Part shown: in pieces, positions 6,670 through 16,722 of the stretch
Numbering within the stretch: position 1 is the first letter of the stretch
How the letters are laid out: each line of letters starts with the position of its first letter
IMG/VR virus record: IMGVR_UViG_3300044615_000589
Span: 1 to 22,480 of that record
Length of the DNA stretch: 22,480 nt
Strand: one strand, 5' to 3'
Source: a virus
Notes under the pieces: model-generated
Seen by the model: the letters and a program-made list of their open reading frames with translations, nothing else
Database searches by the model: none
What the model was told of the DNA's origin: nothing
Translations under genes and position numbers: made by a program

Positions 6670-6978
6670 TTAACTTGCGGCGGTGTAGGCGACGCCGTCG
6701 TAAGAGAAGCCCTGCCAATCTTCGTTGGTTTGCGTCTCGGTGATTTTCGTGATGATCACTTTGCCGGTGACGCCGTCAGGCTCGCCAGCTGCGCCACCGA
6801 GTGTGATTGCAGGCAAGTCGCCCTTGCCTTTAACCGAAAACGAAAACTGACTGTCCACGATTGTTGCCTCAGAGTGAGTGCCGTCGGCGTTGATAAGTTC
6901 CTTGGTTTCGCCCGTGAGCGTAGTGTCCACGGACTCAATGAGCGTGCCGGTAATTTTGGTAATGCCGAAAGTTGCCAT
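6670..6978 (-). CDS. Small tail protein, paralogue B (MATFG family; possibly tail tube-like)
   Basis: This 102-residue beta-rich protein starts MATFGITKITGTLIESVDT. It resembles the gene directly upstream: both begin MATFG. Both also carry a 'KG...LP/LS-x-I-x-L/I-GG' segment followed by V-x-x-T/I-K-x-x-ETN-type text (here VIITKITETQTNEDWQGF). Small beta-sandwich proteins just before the chaperone and tape measure are often major tail (tube) proteins, so one of the pair may build the tube and the other be a minor or terminal version. This is inference from position. ATG at 6978 lies 6 bp after the upstream stop. Confidence 0.55.
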   Translation of the reverse strand: MATFGITKITGTLIESVDTTLTGETKELINADGTHSEATIVDSQFSFSVKGKGDLPAITLGGAAGEPDGVTGKVIITKITETQTNEDWQGFSYDGVAYTAAS

Positions 6979-6984
6979 GGCGGT

Positions 6985-7287
6985 TTATTCGAAAAGGGTT
7001 CCGGTTATTTCCGATGTCGGAAAGTCGTCGTTGGTTTCGCTGTATTTGGTGGACGTAACGGTCAGCGCCGAAAAGCCACCAATGGAAATGGTGGACAGCG
7101 TGGCAATCCCTTTGGTGCGAATGGTCACCGTGGTTTTGCTGCGCGGCTTTGCCTGTGCGAGCACCACGCGCCCCGTTGCGCCTTTGATGGTTGCGGTTTC
7201 GACTTCCTGCGTGCGTTCGGAGCTTTGCAGAAAGCTGCCGGTCGGCGCGGTCAGTCCGAATGTTGAGGTGACTCCAAATGTAGCCAT
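6985..7287 (-). CDS. Small tail protein, paralogue A (MATFG family; possibly tail tube-like)
   Basis: This 100-residue beta-rich protein starts MATFGVTSTFGLTAPTGS at ATG 7287. Starting further upstream at 7341 would overlap the previous gene and lose the match with paralogue B. The C-terminal half (TIRTKGIATLSTISIGG, then VTSTKYSETNDDF) aligns with the downstream protein, pointing to a tandem duplication. The N-terminal halves differ, so the copies have diverged for some time. It is likely a virion tail component; tube subunit is the best guess. Confidence 0.55.
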   Translation of the reverse strand: MATFGVTSTFGLTAPTGSFLQSSERTQEVETATIKGATGRVVLAQAKPRSKTTVTIRTKGIATLSTISIGGFSALTVTSTKYSETNDDFPTSEITGTLFE

Positions 7288-7292
7288 GGGAT

Positions 7293-7673
7293 TTAAGGTT
7301 GTGGGCCGTAGCCCAAGGTGAACTGCAAATTCGTGATCCAATGCCGTTCCGTGTTTTGCGCCTCCGATGAGGTCGCGACCACGCCGTAAACCTGCACCGC
7401 TGAGCCTGCGCCGGTGACGCCCTTGATCGCGTCTGTCACGTCCTGAACGAGCACAATGTGCTCCGCGACTGTGGAGTCGTCAGCCTGGCTCATTACTGCC
7501 ACGGTCAACGCACCACGTTGCAGCGGTCCACCCACCAGCGCATCCCCGCGAATGTCGAGCAGGATGCACGGCATTGTGATCGACTCCCCGTCGTGCGGAA
7601 GCCCGATGTAGGTGCCGGTGAAGTCGGGCGCAATCTCGTCGCGGATTACTTCGCATGTGAGAAGGTCGATCAT
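7293..7673 (-). CDS. Tail completion / terminator-like protein (gpU-like position)
   Basis: This is a 126-residue protein from ATG at 7673, which overlaps the previous stop (ATGA, 7673-7670). It opens MIDLLTCEVIRDEI and has the alternating strand and helix pattern of tail completion proteins: GESITMPCILLDIRGD, GALTVAVMSQADDSTV, HIVLVQDVTDAI, WITNLQFTLGYGP. Such proteins cap the tail or the connector face. In lambda-like gene order this slot, between a gpFII-like protein and the tail tube, is held by gpZ/gpU homologues. The assignment rests on order, length and general pattern, not on a signature motif. Confidence 0.5.
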   Translation of the reverse strand: MIDLLTCEVIRDEIAPDFTGTYIGLPHDGESITMPCILLDIRGDALVGGPLQRGALTVAVMSQADDSTVAEHIVLVQDVTDAIKGVTGAGSAVQVYGVVATSSEAQNTERHWITNLQFTLGYGPQP

Positions 7674-12345: not shown

Positions 12346-14124
12346 CTACTCTGTCGCGGCTGGTTCGTCAACCTCCGGCGCGGTGGACACCATATCGGGC
12401 AACGCGCCCAGGATCTGCGCGGCGAGCACGTTCATTGCCTCCGCGTCCCACATATGGTTCGGCCTGCCCGTCGCCGTCCACCGCAGCCTGGTCTTTTTGG
12501 TTCGCTTGTCCACCGTTGCCCGTTTGCGTTCGCTGTTCAAATGCCGCAGGTATTCCGGCGGTGCGTCCTGCGGAAACTCCCAAACCGGCGATCCCGTGTT
12601 TCTCAAATTTGCGAGAATGTCTTTTACGGGATCCGACGCCCAGTAAAAGAACGTCACAAACACCCGCTTACCCGCAGGGTCCCGCGTCGTCGGCGCCACC
12701 ACGCGGTCCGGTGCGCTGTAATACCGGCGAATGGGTTTTCCGTCGCTGCCCCGCACGGTAAAGAAATCCTCGGCGCGCCCGATTAGTGCGGTCCATCCGT
12801 ATTTTGCGCAGGTGTCGTAAACCCGCCCGTGAAACGAGTTCCCGGCGTCGAGCAGGCACCGCTTGTCGGGCACCTTCAGCCGGACCTGAATCTCGCGCAG
12901 CTGGTCCACCGTCAGAATCTTTCCCGCCCAGAGCAATCGCGAGTGCCCGTTTTTGAGCCACACCCGCACAATGCCCCAGTAGTGATCTTGTTGGCAGTCC
13001 ACCGTCATCACTCTGGCAAACTCCTCCGGCATCGCGCGCCCGTCCTGCCATTCGTTTTGGAAATACTCTGCAGCTTCTAACTCAAGCGCGGGAAGTTCCT
13101 CCTCGAGTTTCCACGGCATTGCGAGCCGCTGCATTCTGAAGTCCTTTGTCGGCTGCAGCACCCCGAGGTGACGCGCGTCCGAGGCTTGGCACCACTGAAT
13201 CACGAGGTCACTCCAGCGGATCCAGTAAACGGACTGGGCGGACACACGGCGCGAGCGGTAACCGTCGACGTGGTCGTTGCCCTCGGTAATCCATTCGCTC
13301 CGCTGGGTCAGCGCCCGCCGTGCGGCCATAGTGTCAGGCGTGACGTGCTGGCAGTGCGGGCATTCATGCCGGACGCTCTTCACCAGTTCGCCCCAGTTCC
13401 ATTCGCCGTTGGCGTTCTTGGCCTCGTCATACTTGATGTCCACCCACTCCGGTTTCACCCAAGCATCGCAGCCGGGGCACCGATGGCACCAAACAAACTC
13501 CTCCCCAGAGCGCCACTCCTCGCTGAGTTGGTGCGGCTCCTCAAAGCTCTGGCTTGTCAGCAGCGCGTAGCCGTTCCACCGGTCATGCAACCGTTTTTTG
13601 AACTGCGTGATGAGGTCGGAATACTGCCAGCACTCATCCAAAAAGAGAGCCTGCACGGACTTTTCCTGAGCGTTGCTGCTGTTGGCTCCGCCCAGCATCA
13701 GCGGCATGTGCGCGAAATAAATGCCGTCCTTCTTAATGAAATGCCGGTTATTTGGCATCAATTCGCGCAATGGGTCGCACGCGTTCAGGACCGGCATCAA
13801 CCTAGTTGCCATCCATTCCGCGGAGGTCTGGTCGGTCTGGGTGATCGAAAGCATCGGCCCAGGCTGCTGCGCCACTGCCCAGCAGACGAGTGCCTCCAGT
13901 GCAGTTGATTTGCCTGCGCCGGTGCACGCCTGGACGAATGTCTGGCGACAAGTCGGATCGGCAAAGTCGTGGATGACGGCATTCCACCAGGGCGCGGTGC
14001 TGCGGTCAAAATGAGTCGAGCGGGAACTGTGCGGGAATCGGACGTTGGCCTCCAGCCAGTCGAGCGGGTCACCGGCGTAGGCGAGGCGGACACCGGCGCG
14101 GGCACCTTCGGCAAAGGGATTCAT
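12346..14124 (-). CDS. Terminase large subunit, GpA family
   Basis: This 592-residue motor and nuclease packages DNA into proheads. The ATPase has Walker A CTGAGKST (residues 67-74) and Walker B ALFLDECW (159-166), with a coupling SQSFEE segment near 191-196. A zinc-binding insertion typical of the GpA family is seen as CHRCPGC (213-219) and CPHC (255-258). The C-terminal RNase H-like nuclease shows acidic residues in TVDCQQD (Asp376), CLLDAGNS (Asp426) and HMWDAEAM (Asp560). Length is close to lambda gpA (641). Cos-type packaging is therefore likely. ATG 14124 overlaps the small-subunit stop (ATGA). Confidence 0.93.
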   Translation of the reverse strand: MNPFAEGARAGVRLAYAGDPLDWLEANVRFPHSSRSTHFDRSTAPWWNAVIHDFADPTCRQTFVQACTGAGKSTALEALVCWAVAQQPGPMLSITQTDQTSAEWMATRLMPVLNACDPLRELMPNNRHFIKKDGIYFAHMPLMLGGANSSNAQEKSVQALFLDECWQYSDLITQFKKRLHDRWNGYALLTSQSFEEPHQLSEEWRSGEEFVWCHRCPGCDAWVKPEWVDIKYDEAKNANGEWNWGELVKSVRHECPHCQHVTPDTMAARRALTQRSEWITEGNDHVDGYRSRRVSAQSVYWIRWSDLVIQWCQASDARHLGVLQPTKDFRMQRLAMPWKLEEELPALELEAAEYFQNEWQDGRAMPEEFARVMTVDCQQDHYWGIVRVWLKNGHSRLLWAGKILTVDQLREIQVRLKVPDKRCLLDAGNSFHGRVYDTCAKYGWTALIGRAEDFFTVRGSDGKPIRRYYSAPDRVVAPTTRDPAGKRVFVTFFYWASDPVKDILANLRNTGSPVWEFPQDAPPEYLRHLNSERKRATVDKRTKKTRLRWTATGRPNHMWDAEAMNVLAAQILGALPDMVSTAPEVDEPAATE

Positions 14125-14621
14125 AGCGTTTCCACCGATTGCCGAGCGTTGGCTTTGAGCAGTTCGATGCGCGATCGTAGGCGCGGCTGGATGTCGGCTT
14201 CGGTGAGCCCGGCGAGTTGCCCAGGAAGGTCACCAACTAGCGCGTCGAGTTCCGAGCACCAAACGGCCACCACGCGCGTAGCGGTTTCGCGCATCTCGTC
14301 GGCCAGCACCAACTCGCCCTTTTCCCGCTTAATGATGAGGTCCAGCCTCTCAATCTCCTTCTGAAGCTTGGCAGTGCGAGCCTCTTTGTAATCAACCGGC
14401 GGCGCGGCAGTCTTTGCCGGTTTTGACTTGCGTTCTTTGTTTGCGACAAGCGGAGGCTCTACCAATCGATCAGCGGTGTACTCGGCGCGCCACGCTTCTT
14501 GCTCGGCAATAGACCAGTCTCGATCAAACCCTTTGCGTTCCCAAAACTGGACAGCAGAGACACTTACACCAAAATGTTTTGCGGTCTGGCTATATGATGA
14601 CCGTTTATTCTGAGTTGCCAC
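14121..14621 (-). CDS. Terminase small subunit, DNA-recognition protein
   Basis: This 166-residue protein lies immediately upstream of the large subunit. An N-terminal helix-turn-helix is visible (SQTAKHFGVSVSAVQFWERK, residues 11-30), followed by a basic linker. A coiled-coil segment (KLQKEIERLDLIIKREKGEL) and a helical C-terminus (SRIELLKANARQSVETL) would contact the large subunit. This is the Nu1-like plan: winged HTH plus assembly helices. The start is GTG at 14621; no Shine-Dalgarno site is visible, and a promoter-like -10 (14634-14629) lies so close that the transcript could be nearly leaderless. Confidence 0.75.
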   Translation of the reverse strand: MATQNKRSSYSQTAKHFGVSVSAVQFWERKGFDRDWSIAEQEAWRAEYTADRLVEPPLVANKERKSKPAKTAAPPVDYKEARTAKLQKEIERLDLIIKREKGELVLADEMRETATRVVAVWCSELDALVGDLPGQLAGLTEADIQPRLRSRIELLKANARQSVETL

Positions 14622-14628
14622 GCCGCGA

Positions 14629-14658
14629 GTAGTACACTCGGCAATATCTGCCGGTCAA
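14629..14658 (-). promoter_or_regulatory. Candidate promoter of the packaging/structural module
   Basis: On the minus strand TTGACC (14658-14653) is followed after 18 nt by TACTAC (14634-14629). The -35 is good and the -10 is poor (3 of 6). It lies after tandem terminators and just before the small terminase gene, where a new transcript is needed. An inverted repeat fills the spacer. Confidence 0.35.
14639..14653. promoter_or_regulatory. Inverted repeat CGGCA-N5-TGCCG, copy 1 (operator or terminase-binding site)
   Basis: CGGCA (14639-14643) and TGCCG (14649-14653) are perfect inverted arms 5 bp apart. The site overlaps the end of the TTGACC box and its spacer. A second site with the same arms and spacing lies 44 bp away. 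Confidence 0.5.
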
Positions 14659-14680
14659 TACCCCACTTGCGCTGTCTACT

Positions 14681-14699
14681 ATCGGCATTTTTTGCCGAT
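14681..14699. promoter_or_regulatory. Inverted repeat ATCGGCA-N5-TGCCGAT, copy 2 (operator or terminase-binding site)
   Basis: The perfect 7-bp arms (14681-14687 and 14693-14699) are separated by TTTTT. It shares the CGGCA-N5-TGCCG core with copy 1, so one dimeric protein probably binds both. It could also form a small RNA hairpin, but it has no U-tract. Confidence 0.5.
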
Positions 14700-14704
14700 T
14701 GCAC

Positions 14705-14736
14705 AAAAAAGGGGCACGCGTCCCTGACCTCACCCC
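14705..14736 (-). terminator. Second (weaker) terminator-like hairpin of a tandem pair
   Basis: On the minus strand GGGGTG can pair with CGTGCCCC through four G-C and two G-U pairs, and six T residues follow (14710-14705). The stem is short, but the U-tract is the longest in the window and it directly follows a stronger hairpin. Confidence 0.45.
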
Positions 14737-14740
14737 GACG

Positions 14741-14770
14741 AAAAGCCCCTCTAGGAGACTCCTTTAGGGG
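14741..14770 (-). terminator. Terminator at the end of the early/accessory gene cluster
   Basis: On the minus strand two 11-nt arms (CCCCTAAAGGA at 14770-14760 and TCCTAGAGGGG at 14756-14746) pair with two mismatches around a 3-nt loop. CTTTT follows. It begins 12 bp after the stop of the last small gene. Confidence 0.65.
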
Positions 14771-14781
14771 GGGGCACCCCA

Positions 14782-15030
14782 TTAAACACGAACCGCAGCC
14801 GTGTTCAATTCCGTGTCTTTATCCCGTGTCTTTATCCACTCCTCAAACGCAGCCCACACCGCCTTGTTAGGGTTTTGGCATCTGCGGTCCGATCCATCCT
14901 TGCGCAGCCACAGCGGCCCAAGTCGCCGGTCGTAATCAAAGCGCCACACCTTGCCGTTGACCATGACTTGCTGGTCTGGCTCGTCACACATGGACACCAG
15001 TGTGTTCTTGTCCCAGCGGATCGTCTTCAT
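14782..15030 (-). CDS. Small protein of unknown function, last gene of the accessory cluster
   Basis: This 82-residue protein (MKTIRWDKNTLVSMCDEPDQ...) overlaps the upstream HTH gene by 4 nt (ATGA at 15030-15027) and ends just before the tandem terminators. A strand-rich middle (QQVMVNGKVWRFDYDRRLGPLW split over residues 20-42) and a Trp-containing helix (KAVWAAFEEWIKTRDKD) suggest a small globular fold. The family was not recognised. Its translational coupling to the HTH protein suggests a shared job. Confidence 0.55.
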   Translation of the reverse strand: MKTIRWDKNTLVSMCDEPDQQVMVNGKVWRFDYDRRLGPLWLRKDGSDRRCQNPNKAVWAAFEEWIKTRDKDTELNTAAVRV

Positions 15031-15362
15031 GCCTCAATTGCCTTTCGCGCCGCCTTCACCGCCTCCCCAATCGCCTGCCGCGATACGCCCAGTACGTGCG
15101 CGTTGTCTGCCGCGCTGTCGTACCCTGTCAGGTGCCCGAGTCCGTAGGCCCACGCCAGCCCAGCCAGCCGCACCGATATTTTGCCGTCGTTGTGTCCCCC
15201 GAGCAGGTGGCTCAGGATCCGCACCAACGCAACGCCCCCGGCAGTCTGCGCCAGTTGCCGCGACCGGCGAACATGCCACGCCCACACCTCGTCAACTTGG
15301 TCCTCGGTCAGCCCCAGGTCGAGCAGTTCCTCTTGCGTTTGTGGCGTCAGGTCGTCGGTCAT
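15027..15362 (-). CDS. Small protein with helix-turn-helix-like C-terminus
   Basis: This 111-residue protein starts at ATG 15362 (MTDDLTPQTQEELLDLGLTE). The frame is open to a GTG at 15506, but that stretch is a repeat-bearing segment and is not taken as coding. The C-terminal part (SAADNAHVLGVSRQAIGEAV, about residues 83-102) reads as an HTH: a helix, the turn around LGVS, and a recognition helix. It could be a late regulator or a DNA-packaging accessory protein. Being just upstream of the control region before the terminase genes, it is a candidate binder of the CGGCA sites. Confidence 0.55.
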   Translation of the reverse strand: MTDDLTPQTQEELLDLGLTEDQVDEVWAWHVRRSRQLAQTAGGVALVRILSHLLGGHNDGKISVRLAGLAWAYGLGHLTGYDSAADNAHVLGVSRQAIGEAVKAARKAIEA

Positions 15363-15367
15363 AAAGA

Positions 15368-15389
15368 GTGCCGTCTCTCCGGCTGTCAC
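15368..15389. repeat. 22-bp hairpin repeat, copy 1
   Basis: It is identical over 22 bp to 15485-15506, starts GTGCCGTCTCTCCGG and ends GTCAC. GTG/CAC ends and CCG/CGG arms allow a small imperfect hairpin. It sits directly before the ATG of the HTH gene. Confidence 0.75.
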
Positions 15390-15436
15390 GCCTGTGGACT
15401 CTTGGCGGCGTTCCCGAGCGGGCGTCCCCGCAGTAG

Positions 15437-15480
15437 CCCCGCCGGTTTGAGGAACGCTTGCGCGCCTAGCCTTGGCGGGG
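15437..15480. repeat. Inverted repeat CCCCGCC...GGCGGGG between the hairpin repeats
   Basis: The perfect 7-bp arms at 15437-15443 and 15474-15480 are separated by 30 nt. They lie between the two 22-bp repeats. The 15363-15591 gap otherwise contains only a doubtful 35-codon ORF at its start. Confidence 0.5.
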
Positions 15481-15484
15481 TCTG

Positions 15485-15506
15485 GTGCCGTCTCTCCGGC
15501 TGTCAC
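15485..15506. repeat. 22-bp hairpin repeat, copy 2
   Basis: This is an exact direct copy of 15368-15389, offset by 117 bp. Since 117 is a multiple of three, both copies read VTAGETA in the same minus-strand frame. Confidence 0.75.
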
Positions 15507-15515
15507 ACCACTGCA

Positions 15516-15623
15516 TCAACCGAGCATCCCCGGTCCGTGCTCACCGGCATGGAGCCAGCGGCAGGTGTCGCTCTGCAGTTGCAGGATGCCGTTACTCTGG
15601 CCTTCCTGTGGGTAAGTCGTCAA
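15516..15623 (-). CDS. Doubtful 35-residue ORF with TTG start
   Basis: AGGAGG (15632-15627) lies 3 nt before TTG 15623. The frame gives MTTYPQEGQSNGILQLQSDT and ends ...HAGEHGPGMLG. It overlaps the end of the upstream gene in another frame. The strong ribosome binding site and protein-like text are the only support; spacing is shorter than usual. Confidence 0.25.
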   Translation of the reverse strand: MTTYPQEGQSNGILQLQSDTCRWLHAGEHGPGMLG

Positions 15624-15780
15624 GATCCTCCTGCGTCCACCCCTCCCGGCGCATCTGCACCTCGAGCACCAGCGCCCATGCCTGCCACGCCCGGCGTTTC
15701 TCGCGCTCGCGGCGCAGCGTTGTGTGCAGGATTGCCAGTGCCTGCTCTATGTCGAGTCGTTCGTCGGCTGTCAGGCTCAT
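15592..15780 (-). CDS. Small helical protein of unknown function
   Basis: This 62-residue protein (MSLTADERLDIEQALAILHT...) consists almost wholly of charged helix: residues 6-44 are likely one or two long amphipathic helices (LRREREKRRAWQAWALVLEV). The tail is acidic (WTQEDLDDLPTGRPE). ATG 15780 overlaps the upstream stop (ATGA). It belongs to a row of small, coupled, coiled-coil proteins that could be host-takeover or anti-defence factors. No family was recognised. Confidence 0.55.
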   Translation of the reverse strand: MSLTADERLDIEQALAILHTTLRREREKRRAWQAWALVLEVQMRREGWTQEDLDDLPTGRPE

Positions 15781-15986
15781 TTGAGTGCCTCCAGTGCGAT
15801 CTGCCGCATGTTTAGTGCCCAGTTGCCGTGATAGTCGCGGATCCGTTCCAGTGCCGCTTCCAGCTTGTCCGCGCGTGCCTGTGCCTCGGCTAGGCTTAGC
15901 TGCAGCGACTCCACAATACTCTGCGCTAAGTCAGGGTCGCGCCGGTAGCGTTCGGTCCAGGTGAGTTTTGCTTCTGATAATGTCAT
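15777..15986 (-). CDS. Small coiled-coil protein of unknown function
   Basis: This 69-residue protein starts at ATG 15986 (MTLSEAKLTWTERYRRDPDL), preceded by AAGGAGG with 4-nt spacing, which decides the start over the in-frame ATG at 16025. Residues 20-50 form a heptad-like helix (SIVESLQLSLAEAQARADKL), ending in ALNMRQIALEALK. It overlaps both neighbours by 4 nt. The function is unknown. Confidence 0.6.
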   Translation of the reverse strand: MTLSEAKLTWTERYRRDPDLAQSIVESLQLSLAEAQARADKLEAALERIRDYHGNWALNMRQIALEALK

Positions 15987-16162
15987 TGTGCCTCCTTCTT
16001 TAGTTTCCGCACTTTTGCTTTCCATTCAGACACTGTCTTTCGGAGCTCCTGATTGGTTTCGATCAAAACACCGATGTGCAATCTGGTGCGTTCAACCTCT
16101 TTTTCAAGACGGTCATTTTCCTCTGCCAGATCATTGAGGAACTGCATGAGTCGCTTGTTCAT
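15983..16162 (-). CDS. Small coiled-coil protein of unknown function
   Basis: This is a 59-residue, highly charged coiled-coil protein (MNKRLMQFLNDLAEENDRLE, then EVERTRLHIGVLIETNQELR and KVRKLKKEAQ). ATG 16162 overlaps the stop of the HNH gene (ATGA) and is preceded by a strong GGGAGGAGGTG site. That site lies inside the gene end rescued by the HNH fusion, so keeping this end may have been selected to preserve translation of the small gene. Confidence 0.6.
   Translation of the reverse strand: MNKRLMQFLNDLAEENDRLEKEVERTRLHIGVLIETNQELRKTVSEWKAKVRKLKKEAQ
15991..15997 (-). promoter_or_regulatory. Strong ribosome binding site AAGGAGG
   Basis: It lies 4 nt before ATG 15986 and fixes that start. 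Such sites are rare elsewhere in this window. Confidence 0.7.
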
Positions 16163-16722
16163 TTCTGCACCTCCTCCCATTTTCCCAGCGTCTTCAGAAA
16201 CGCCTCTGCACGTTGGCGGGCGTCAAATTCAGAAATTTCAAGATGCGACCATCGTTTTCCTTTTCTGATGTCGCAAATAACTGTCAGCGATACACCAAAC
16301 TTTCGCGCAAGAATTGATGCAGTTCCTTTTTTTAAAGGGCAACCCTTTGCAATTATTGCCTGCTCTTCAGTTAATTTGCACTCGTGGTTGTTTTGACCAT
16401 TTTTAACTTTGCGAACCTTAAGCATCGCCAAACATCCGGGTTTTGTGTTGTGCCTGTTTTTATTGACCATGTCTTTCATGTTGTCGGATCGAGATCCAAT
16501 AAAAATATGCGAAGGCTTTACGCACAATTTATTGTCGCATTTATGACACGCCTCCATTCCTTTTGACGGATGTGAATCAAGCAAAAACCAATGCGCTGGA
16601 ATGTTTCTAGTTCCGTCCCAAAATTGGCCATACCCAGAACCACTCCGCGCACCATTCCATTCCCAACATTGATTTTCCTGTTTAACGGAAACCTTTTGCA
16701 TAAACCTTTCATGTCTATTCAT
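16159..16722 (-). CDS. HNH homing endonuclease fused to the C-terminus of an interrupted phage gene
   Basis: This 187-residue protein opens with NQCWEWNGARSGSGYGQFW (residues 17-35). The HNH core is ACHKCDNKLCVKPSHIF (58-74) followed by GSRSDNMKDMVNKNR, the usual signature of phage HNH endonucleases. A likely helix-turn-helix for target binding follows (LARKFGVSLTVICDIRKGKR, 138-157). The last 21 residues (DARQRAEAFLKTLGKWEEV) match the end of a different small phage protein family whose start lies just upstream. Base composition is much poorer in GC than its neighbours (23 of 60 at 16441-16500), a sign of transfer. No ribosome binding site precedes ATG 16722. Confidence 0.88.
   Translation of the reverse strand: MNRHERFMQKVSVKQENQCWEWNGARSGSGYGQFWDGTRNIPAHWFLLDSHPSKGMEACHKCDNKLCVKPSHIFIGSRSDNMKDMVNKNRHNTKPGCLAMLKVRKVKNGQNNHECKLTEEQAIIAKGCPLKKGTASILARKFGVSLTVICDIRKGKRWSHLEISEFDARQRAEAFLKTLGKWEEVQK
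16168..16178 (-). promoter_or_regulatory. Strong ribosome binding site GGGAGGAGGTG
   Basis: It lies 5 nt before ATG 16162, within the last codons of the HNH fusion gene, and fixes the start of the downstream coiled-coil gene. Confidence 0.7.

Follow-up and report, generated by a model that had tools for sequence, protein, structure and literature searches.

A likely lambda-type cos left end with cosB-like inverted repeats upstream of the small terminase gene of an uncultured phage

In phage lambda, the small terminase subunit (TerS) binds cosB, beside cosN, and positions the large subunit (TerL), as described in the excerpted text of PMC4669245. According to the same excerpts, lambda, 21 and N15 differ in cosB and in the recognition helix of TerS, whereas conservation among them extends to cosQ, cosN and I2. 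RppC is another cosB-directed protein, as described in excerpts of PMC6739421. Here, comparison of a phage sequence with its relatives points to a region of similar design, which we consider fairly likely to be the left end of a lambda-type cos genome, with cosB-like dyads bound by TerS and with probable repression of the terS operon through the second of these dyads.

The window, that is, the whole stretch of DNA that was analyzed, is the 22,480-base virus record IMGVR_UViG_3300044615_000589, and gene coordinates are given on its scale. All genes identified in the window read on the minus strand, in the right-to-left order HTH-like protein, small ORF, terS, terL, portal and head protease. DUF5906 and DUF2800 proteins, also on the minus strand, are encoded on the right side of the window and were assigned by eye to the replication type. 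Elsewhere in the window, a small ORF (511-792) contains a collagen-like GPQGPQGPQGPP stretch and has no Pfam match at E 0.001, and two adjoining ORFs at 6670-7341 share similar stretches (MATFGI.., MATFGV..) and perhaps encode tandem paralogous structural proteins.

The terL gene (12346-14124, minus strand) encodes a large terminase subunit of the GpA family (PF05876, E 1.1e-23; PF20454, E 2.3e-12), with profile similarity to the lambda/N15 TerL (hhalign E 4.4e-5). Its relatives in phage records number 15, all distant, with a best identity of 23.4%; among genome contigs, three stretches fit a pattern for such relatives and none was confirmed. The product of terS (14121-14621, minus strand; GTG start at 14619-14621) is a small terminase subunit with an HTH-like N-terminus that belongs to PHROG 57 (terminase small subunit; E 9.2e-13) and has an HTH_28 match (E 0.00037) below Pfam's own cut-off. 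Its profile is weakly similar to that of the lambda/N15 TerS (hhalign E 3.5e-4, probability 37%). The N-terminus matched RppC entries very weakly (E 0.32), with another regulator at 0.12. The TerS model aligned weakly with 6hn7_B (Z 4.2, rmsd 7.2, 56 aligned residues, 23% identity), and unrelated helical proteins outscored this entry on the C-terminal part of the model. A Foldseek search with the TerS model returned nothing at E 0.001, and the lambda TerS did not appear under its own name.

Two matching inverted repeats, CGGCA-N5-TGCCG, with centers 44 bp apart had been reported in the sequence-only reading, and both are indeed present in front of terS: repeat 1 (CGGCAAAAAATGCCG) at 14683-14697, the left half of which is kept among relatives while the right half varies, and repeat 2 (CGGCAGATATTGCCG) at 14639-14653, the proposed TerS-binding dyad within a promoter-like element of terS. 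The search of the remaining sequence that had been proposed there yielded one further exact copy, absent from that reading: site 3 (CGGCAAAGACTGCCG) at 14405-14419, inside terS. The many random copies considered there as a possible objection did not materialize, with three exact copies in the 22,480 bases where 0.11 would be expected; no shuffle out of 100 reached three. Counted from the first cohesive base (see below), the CGGCA dyads start at +37, +81 and +315, and terS starts at +113; the shorter form used for the relatives, GGCA-N5-TGCC, starts one base later in each case.

The genome terminus, the mapping of which had also been proposed, could be placed from contig ends. When IMG/VR was searched with TerS, 35 loci were obtained, and many of these start about 112 nt ahead of terS. 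Scanning by pattern for the conserved block adjoining the terminus returned 58 contigs, three of which (L074, L076 and L094) were dropped as unrelated by context; 14 of the 55 that were kept duplicate a region already in the set. Among these 55 IMG/VR contigs, 26 start at exactly one base, three start one base further in, two start 10 and 12 bases further in, and the other 24 run across the site. The scan of the opposite flank gave 27 contigs, seven of which end at exactly one base. The two kinds of contig end overlap by 15 nt, mostly GTG-N8-GACG, and one contig, 3300037507_001179 (G023; 34,594 bp), carries both. The contig starts are best explained by ends of DNA molecules, because an assembly accident would not recur to the base, and filled-in 5' overhangs are the simplest reading, given that the 15 nt are present on both contig ends, as end repair of 5' overhangs would give. 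These are the fixed ends and the short shared cohesive sequence of a lambda-type cos. In the window, the cohesive-end sequence (GTGAGGTCAGGGACG) places cosN at 14719-14733 on the minus strand, as judged from the contig ends of relatives and from adapter junctions, with nicks predicted at 14733/14734 on the minus strand and at 14718/14719 on the plus strand. This puts the terminus 21 bp upstream of repeat 1, with terS on the far side of both repeats. Cutting at cosN probably leaves 15-nt overhangs, the 5' polarity of which we infer from the shared contig ends. A narrow word search of the open-licence literature gave no match for 15-nt cohesive ends, a result that does not prove absence.

A set anchored on TerL, in which 80 of 108 loci were retained and which largely overlaps the motif-anchored set, gave a similar picture: 27 loci start exactly at the terminus, four (L148, L155, L163 and L164) start at an approximately equivalent place in diverged sequence, seven start near it, 21 span it, and the remaining 21 begin further in or lack the motif. 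Two of the diverged loci, L148 and L155, start with CGTTC-N-GTCGTCAT at the approximately equivalent place, suggesting another subtype of cosN. One of the seven near starts, L158, begins with CTCTTCCGATCT directly before the terminus, a sequence that we take to be the end of an Illumina adapter. A scan for this adapter followed by GTG-N8-GACG gave two matches, L158 and L173, the latter with a TerL that is 58% identical; the scan for the reverse arrangement found no adapter at the opposite genome end. The physical genome ends of an uncultured phage family were placed from contig ends alone.

To describe conservation next to the terminus, the TerL loci and the window were combined into 60 regions reaching cos, which were reduced to 41 non-redundant regions at 95% identity; regions were assigned to TerS classes, and the window belongs to class A. 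In the consensus of 22 unique cos-spanning sequences, TCGG(G/A), GTG-N8-GACG and the cos-proximal block TTTTTTGTGCAATCGGCAAAAA are nearly invariant. This block (14689-14710, minus strand) includes the left half of repeat 1 and occurs with all TerS classes. Its core is found in 38 of the 41 regions, a conservation that is overstated because most regions were located with this motif; it is missing in L148, L155 and L164 and takes relaxed forms in L163 and L165. At the place of repeat 1, GGCA-N5-TGCC is exact in 17 of the 41 regions and not exact in 24, the right arm being variable.

The second GGCA-N5-TGCC dyad is exact in 27 of the 41 non-redundant regions and present with at most one mismatch in 39, compared to 9 and 373 (9%), respectively, of 4,100 background segments of the same loci, length-matched to the 135-nt test stretch. 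The motif is therefore conserved, contrary to a possibility that had been left open, and forms repeated sites between cosN and terS, as expected of a cosB. With at most one mismatch allowed, the second dyad is absent from two of the 41 regions, L109 and L164. Downstream of its cos block, L109 has a different inverted repeat, GACGGT..ACCGTC, and encodes another TerS type. The first 800 nt of L173, a contig with the same type of end, contain no exact GGCA-N5-TGCC. The third dyad, inside terS, is an exact GGCA-N5-TGCC at +314 to +316 in 17 of the 21 class A regions, with no exact copy in the other four, and among the regions examined was seen in class A only; its arms are constant and its spacer and the amino acids encoded there variable, as judged from a translation made partly by eye. 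Among the matches listed, each of 33 records carries one to five exact GGCA-N5-TGCC sites, counted irrespective of their position relative to promoters. G023 has two, among the matches listed, one of them at the in-gene terS place, and its dyad 2 contains one mismatch.

The loci encode TerL proteins that are 84-100% identical and TerS proteins with a well conserved C-terminal half, and the N-terminal HTH region of TerS falls into clearly different types, with recognition helices such as SAVQFWE, GAVQGWE, GVLRWKR and GATFQWK. Sequence comparison shows that the position of the second dyad is linked to TerS type. With at most one mismatch, it starts at +81/82 in class A (21 of 21 regions), +69 in class B (9 of 10), +58-60 in class C (6 of 6), +113 in class D (2 of 2) and +80 in class F (1 of 1), and there is none in the single class E region; the sequence around the dyad looks unalike between classes. 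In class B, terS is located more than 1 kb further from cos, behind a first gene encoding a ParB-like protein (by Pfam match in L048; in the others, the start of the ORF looks similar by eye), yet the link between dyad and class still holds. Thus, the layout of the sites co-varies with the DNA-binding domain of TerS, as expected of a cosB. However, the putative recognition sequence does not change with the recognition helix, as it does between lambda and 21: GGCA-N5-TGCC is common to classes A, B, C, D and F despite their different helices, which would be unexpected if TerS alone read the dyad. The distances between dyads, taken from one representative per class and two for class C (44, 31, 22, 63, 75 and 42 bp), cluster near multiples of 10.5 bp (R 0.86, p ~0.005, n=6; p ~0.017, n=5, without the second class C distance), in a test that rests on few distances and on representatives chosen by the analyst. 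Taken together, the TerL proteins of 84-100% identity, the several TerS domains and the matching changes in signal layout amount to a natural experiment on packaging specificity.

Several loci carry additional features around terS. Between cos and terS, L048 (8549-10690) encodes a ParB_N protein, a Tet_JBP-type oxygenase and an FkbM methyltransferase, possibly DNA-modification cargo. L110, L126, L034 and L129 contain a frame of about 330 codons or more between terS and terL, which by eye resembles a D12-class adenine methyltransferase. In class C, L127, L130, L148 and L155 have direct TGTAT repeats and a palindrome, TGTATTATTGATAATACA, before terS, the palindrome being slightly changed in L155.

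The sequence-only reading had placed one repeat across a TTGACC box, in the spacer of a promoter-like element. This is borne out for repeat 2: the -35-like TTGACC (14653-14658, minus strand) shares its last C with the repeat, and the -10-like TACTAC (14629-14634, minus strand) follows 18 bp from TTGACC, immediately ahead of the terS GTG. All 21 non-redundant class A regions contain GTATTGAC, with a TACTAC-like box 17-18 bp after it, dyad 2 in the spacer, and the GTG just downstream. A simple consensus promoter scan of the window did not report this element. If transcription began about 7 nt past TACTAC, the terS mRNA would have little or no leader; a narrow word search of the open-licence literature for leaderless small-terminase promoters gave no match, which does not prove absence. 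In classes B, D and F, a dyad adjoins the start of the first gene, ending a few bases before the ATG in B and D and lying just inside the ORF in F; in class C, this position, before or at the gene start, is mostly taken by a copy with one mismatch. Dyad 2 is bordered by AGTAG/CTACT-like arms at uneven spacing in many relatives of class A; in the window (14629-14665), one side reads AGTGG.

Tandem terminators had also been proposed upstream of the repeats, and one of the two is plausible. A hairpin at 14746-14770 followed by TTTT (14742-14770 in all, minus strand; -12.8 kcal/mol) lies just outside cosN, and its core, AAGGAGTCTCCT, is found in most cos-spanning relatives. The second, which would end in the T-run at 14705-14710 and coincides with cosN and the adjoining conserved block, is possible at the edge of cosN and not secure: its fold in the window is weak (-8.5), and by our count 11 of the 19 unique spanning sequences are predicted to form a stem that stops at the T-run, with the paired bases differing among them. 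A terminator scan of the window reported neither of these two candidates, and a consensus fold examined for covariation gave no structure (energy 0.0).

In our preferred reading, a phage genome packaged from a lambda-type cos has its left end at 14622-14733. TerL would nick the two strands of cosN (14719-14733) at staggered positions, probably with 15-nt 5' overhangs as the result, and the CGGCA-N5-TGCCG dyads would be cosB-like, two-fold symmetric targets for the HTH domain of a dimeric TerS, which, once bound, would hold TerL at cosN. By analogy, the class-independent block would belong to the cosN side and the dyads would be the sites for TerS. Because dyad 2 lies within the conserved promoter-like element of terS, TerS bound there probably keeps the packaging operon from being transcribed as well, once TerS is abundant enough. 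We infer the dimerization of TerS, its binding to the dyads and the repression of the operon from this arrangement. Of the two roles that the sequence-only reading had offered for the repeats, that of cosB-like sites is well supported by position, with the terminus 21 bp from repeat 1, and also by the linkage to TerS type. That of operators is possible beside it: in classes A, B, D and F, a dyad occupies the promoter-like element of the first gene or adjoins its start, and class C mostly has a copy with one mismatch there. The chief difficulty for the preferred reading lies in the pairing of different HTH types with one half-site, unlike in lambda and 21, so that a second protein could read the dyads.

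The alternative that takes up this difficulty, namely that the dyads are operators through which a regulator other than TerS, encoded by the phage or the host, controls the leftmost operon, with the closeness of cosN incidental, seems unlikely to us. It would account for a dyad in the TTGAC..TACTAC spacer (class A) or at the start of the first gene (B, D, F and most of C), for the ParB-like protein, rather than TerS, as the first product in class B, and for the occurrence of one half-site with different TerS HTH types. The two exact sites in G023 among the matches listed, one of them in terS, argue against a wide regulon, however, and neither the third dyad deep within terS of class A nor the position of the dyad, which tracks TerS class and not the HTH protein adjacent to cos, would be expected of such a regulator. 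That adjacent protein, of 111 aa and HTH-like (15027-15362, minus strand), had been suggested as a candidate binder of the repeats and is disfavored. It is encoded upstream of cos in relatives, at the right end of the linear genome, in 22 of 22 loci tested (near-copies included), but its type does not follow the dyad layout, four of its six clusters mixing TerS classes, and the L109 protein is identical to that of the window over 110 aligned residues although L109 lacks the second dyad. The protein has no Pfam or PHROG match at E 0.001, and its model has no match at E 0.001 and only weak general matches to DNA-binding domains. Upstream of its gene, a 22-bp direct repeat, GTGCCGTCTCTCCGGCTGTCAC, occurs at 15368-15389 and 15485-15506, 117 bp apart.

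Two further readings of the repeats are less probable still. If only the cos-proximal half of repeat 1 mattered, as an I2-like element that TerL or a host factor reads, repeat 2 would be a promoter feature and the TGCC arms partly coincidental. The T6-GTGCAATCGGC-A5 block that accompanies all TerS classes next to a variable right arm is in line with this, as is lambda I2, which lies between cosN and cosB and is conserved and required for efficient termination of packaging (excerpts of PMC4669245); we nevertheless consider this improbable in view of the second dyad, which 39 of 41 regions carry with no more than one mismatch, against a 9% background, at class-specific places in unalike sequence. 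Even less credence can be given to transcription terminators or RNA hairpins: the stems are short and GC-rich, adjoin T or A runs, and at 14405-14419 were called by the terminator scan on the plus strand, antisense to terS, but the scan made no call at repeats 1 and 2, Rfam gave no match at the gathering threshold in 14000-16200, the arms are kept while loops and flanks vary, and repeat 2 is upstream of the predicted start point. By eye, the repeats fit neither a sigma54-type nor an IHF-type reading.

If TerS also represses the operon through the dyads, a single protein would couple packaging to transcription. A broader version of the preferred reading, which we put forward only tentatively and with more doubt than confidence, is that cos is both a packaging signal and a feedback switch, at which TerS dimers on phased dyads position the terminase and shut the promoter of the left operon, and that a cassette of cosB and the TerS HTH domain has been exchanged among near-identical terminases with the half-site kept. 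Were the feedback switch real, packaging would start when the left operon is turned off.

Among the closest described counterparts is lambda cos (cosQ-cosN-cosB; gpNu1 and gpA). The two share the order cosN, binding sites (putative here), terS and terL, a GpA-family TerL and a TerS that is of HTH type in lambda and HTH-like here, as well as a conserved cosN side next to sites that vary with the DNA-binding domain of TerS (lambda as in the excerpts of PMC4669245), and the cos-proximal block at 14689-14710 is comparable in position to lambda I2/R3. They differ in the length of the shared ends (12 nt in lambda, 15 here), in the sites, which are single R elements in both orientations in lambda and predicted symmetric dyads here, in the distance of terS from the end (191 nt against 113) and in the promoter-like element that overlaps the sites here; cosQ was not identified here, and inspection by eye against the consensus gave no clear match to an IHF site between the dyads, such as lies between R3 and R2 of lambda. 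As in N15, terS is near the end (89 nt in N15, 113 here) and contains an extra copy of the site; the N15 copy, rR2 in gene 1, lies about 200 bp distal to R3 and is a single R in inverted orientation (excerpts of PMC4669245), whereas the one here is a dyad at +315. The pac/gp1 region of SPP1 is alike in that the TerS-binding region overlaps promoters and the part of terS that encodes the DNA-binding domain (excerpts of PMC6316719), and differs in headful packaging from pac, with no fixed cohesive ends. RppC of the E. coli PICIs (6hlk, 6hn7) resembles the TerS described here in its HTH domain, with very weak sequence and weak fold similarity, but is a satellite-coded partner of TerS and not a terminase subunit. 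The 12-nt, lambda-like ends that define the lambda-like cohesive-end group in the excerpts of PMC4669245 are replaced here by 15-nt ends of the form GTG-N8-GACG. Given these 15-nt ends, the site is not a member of that group, and it would work like the cos of lambda.
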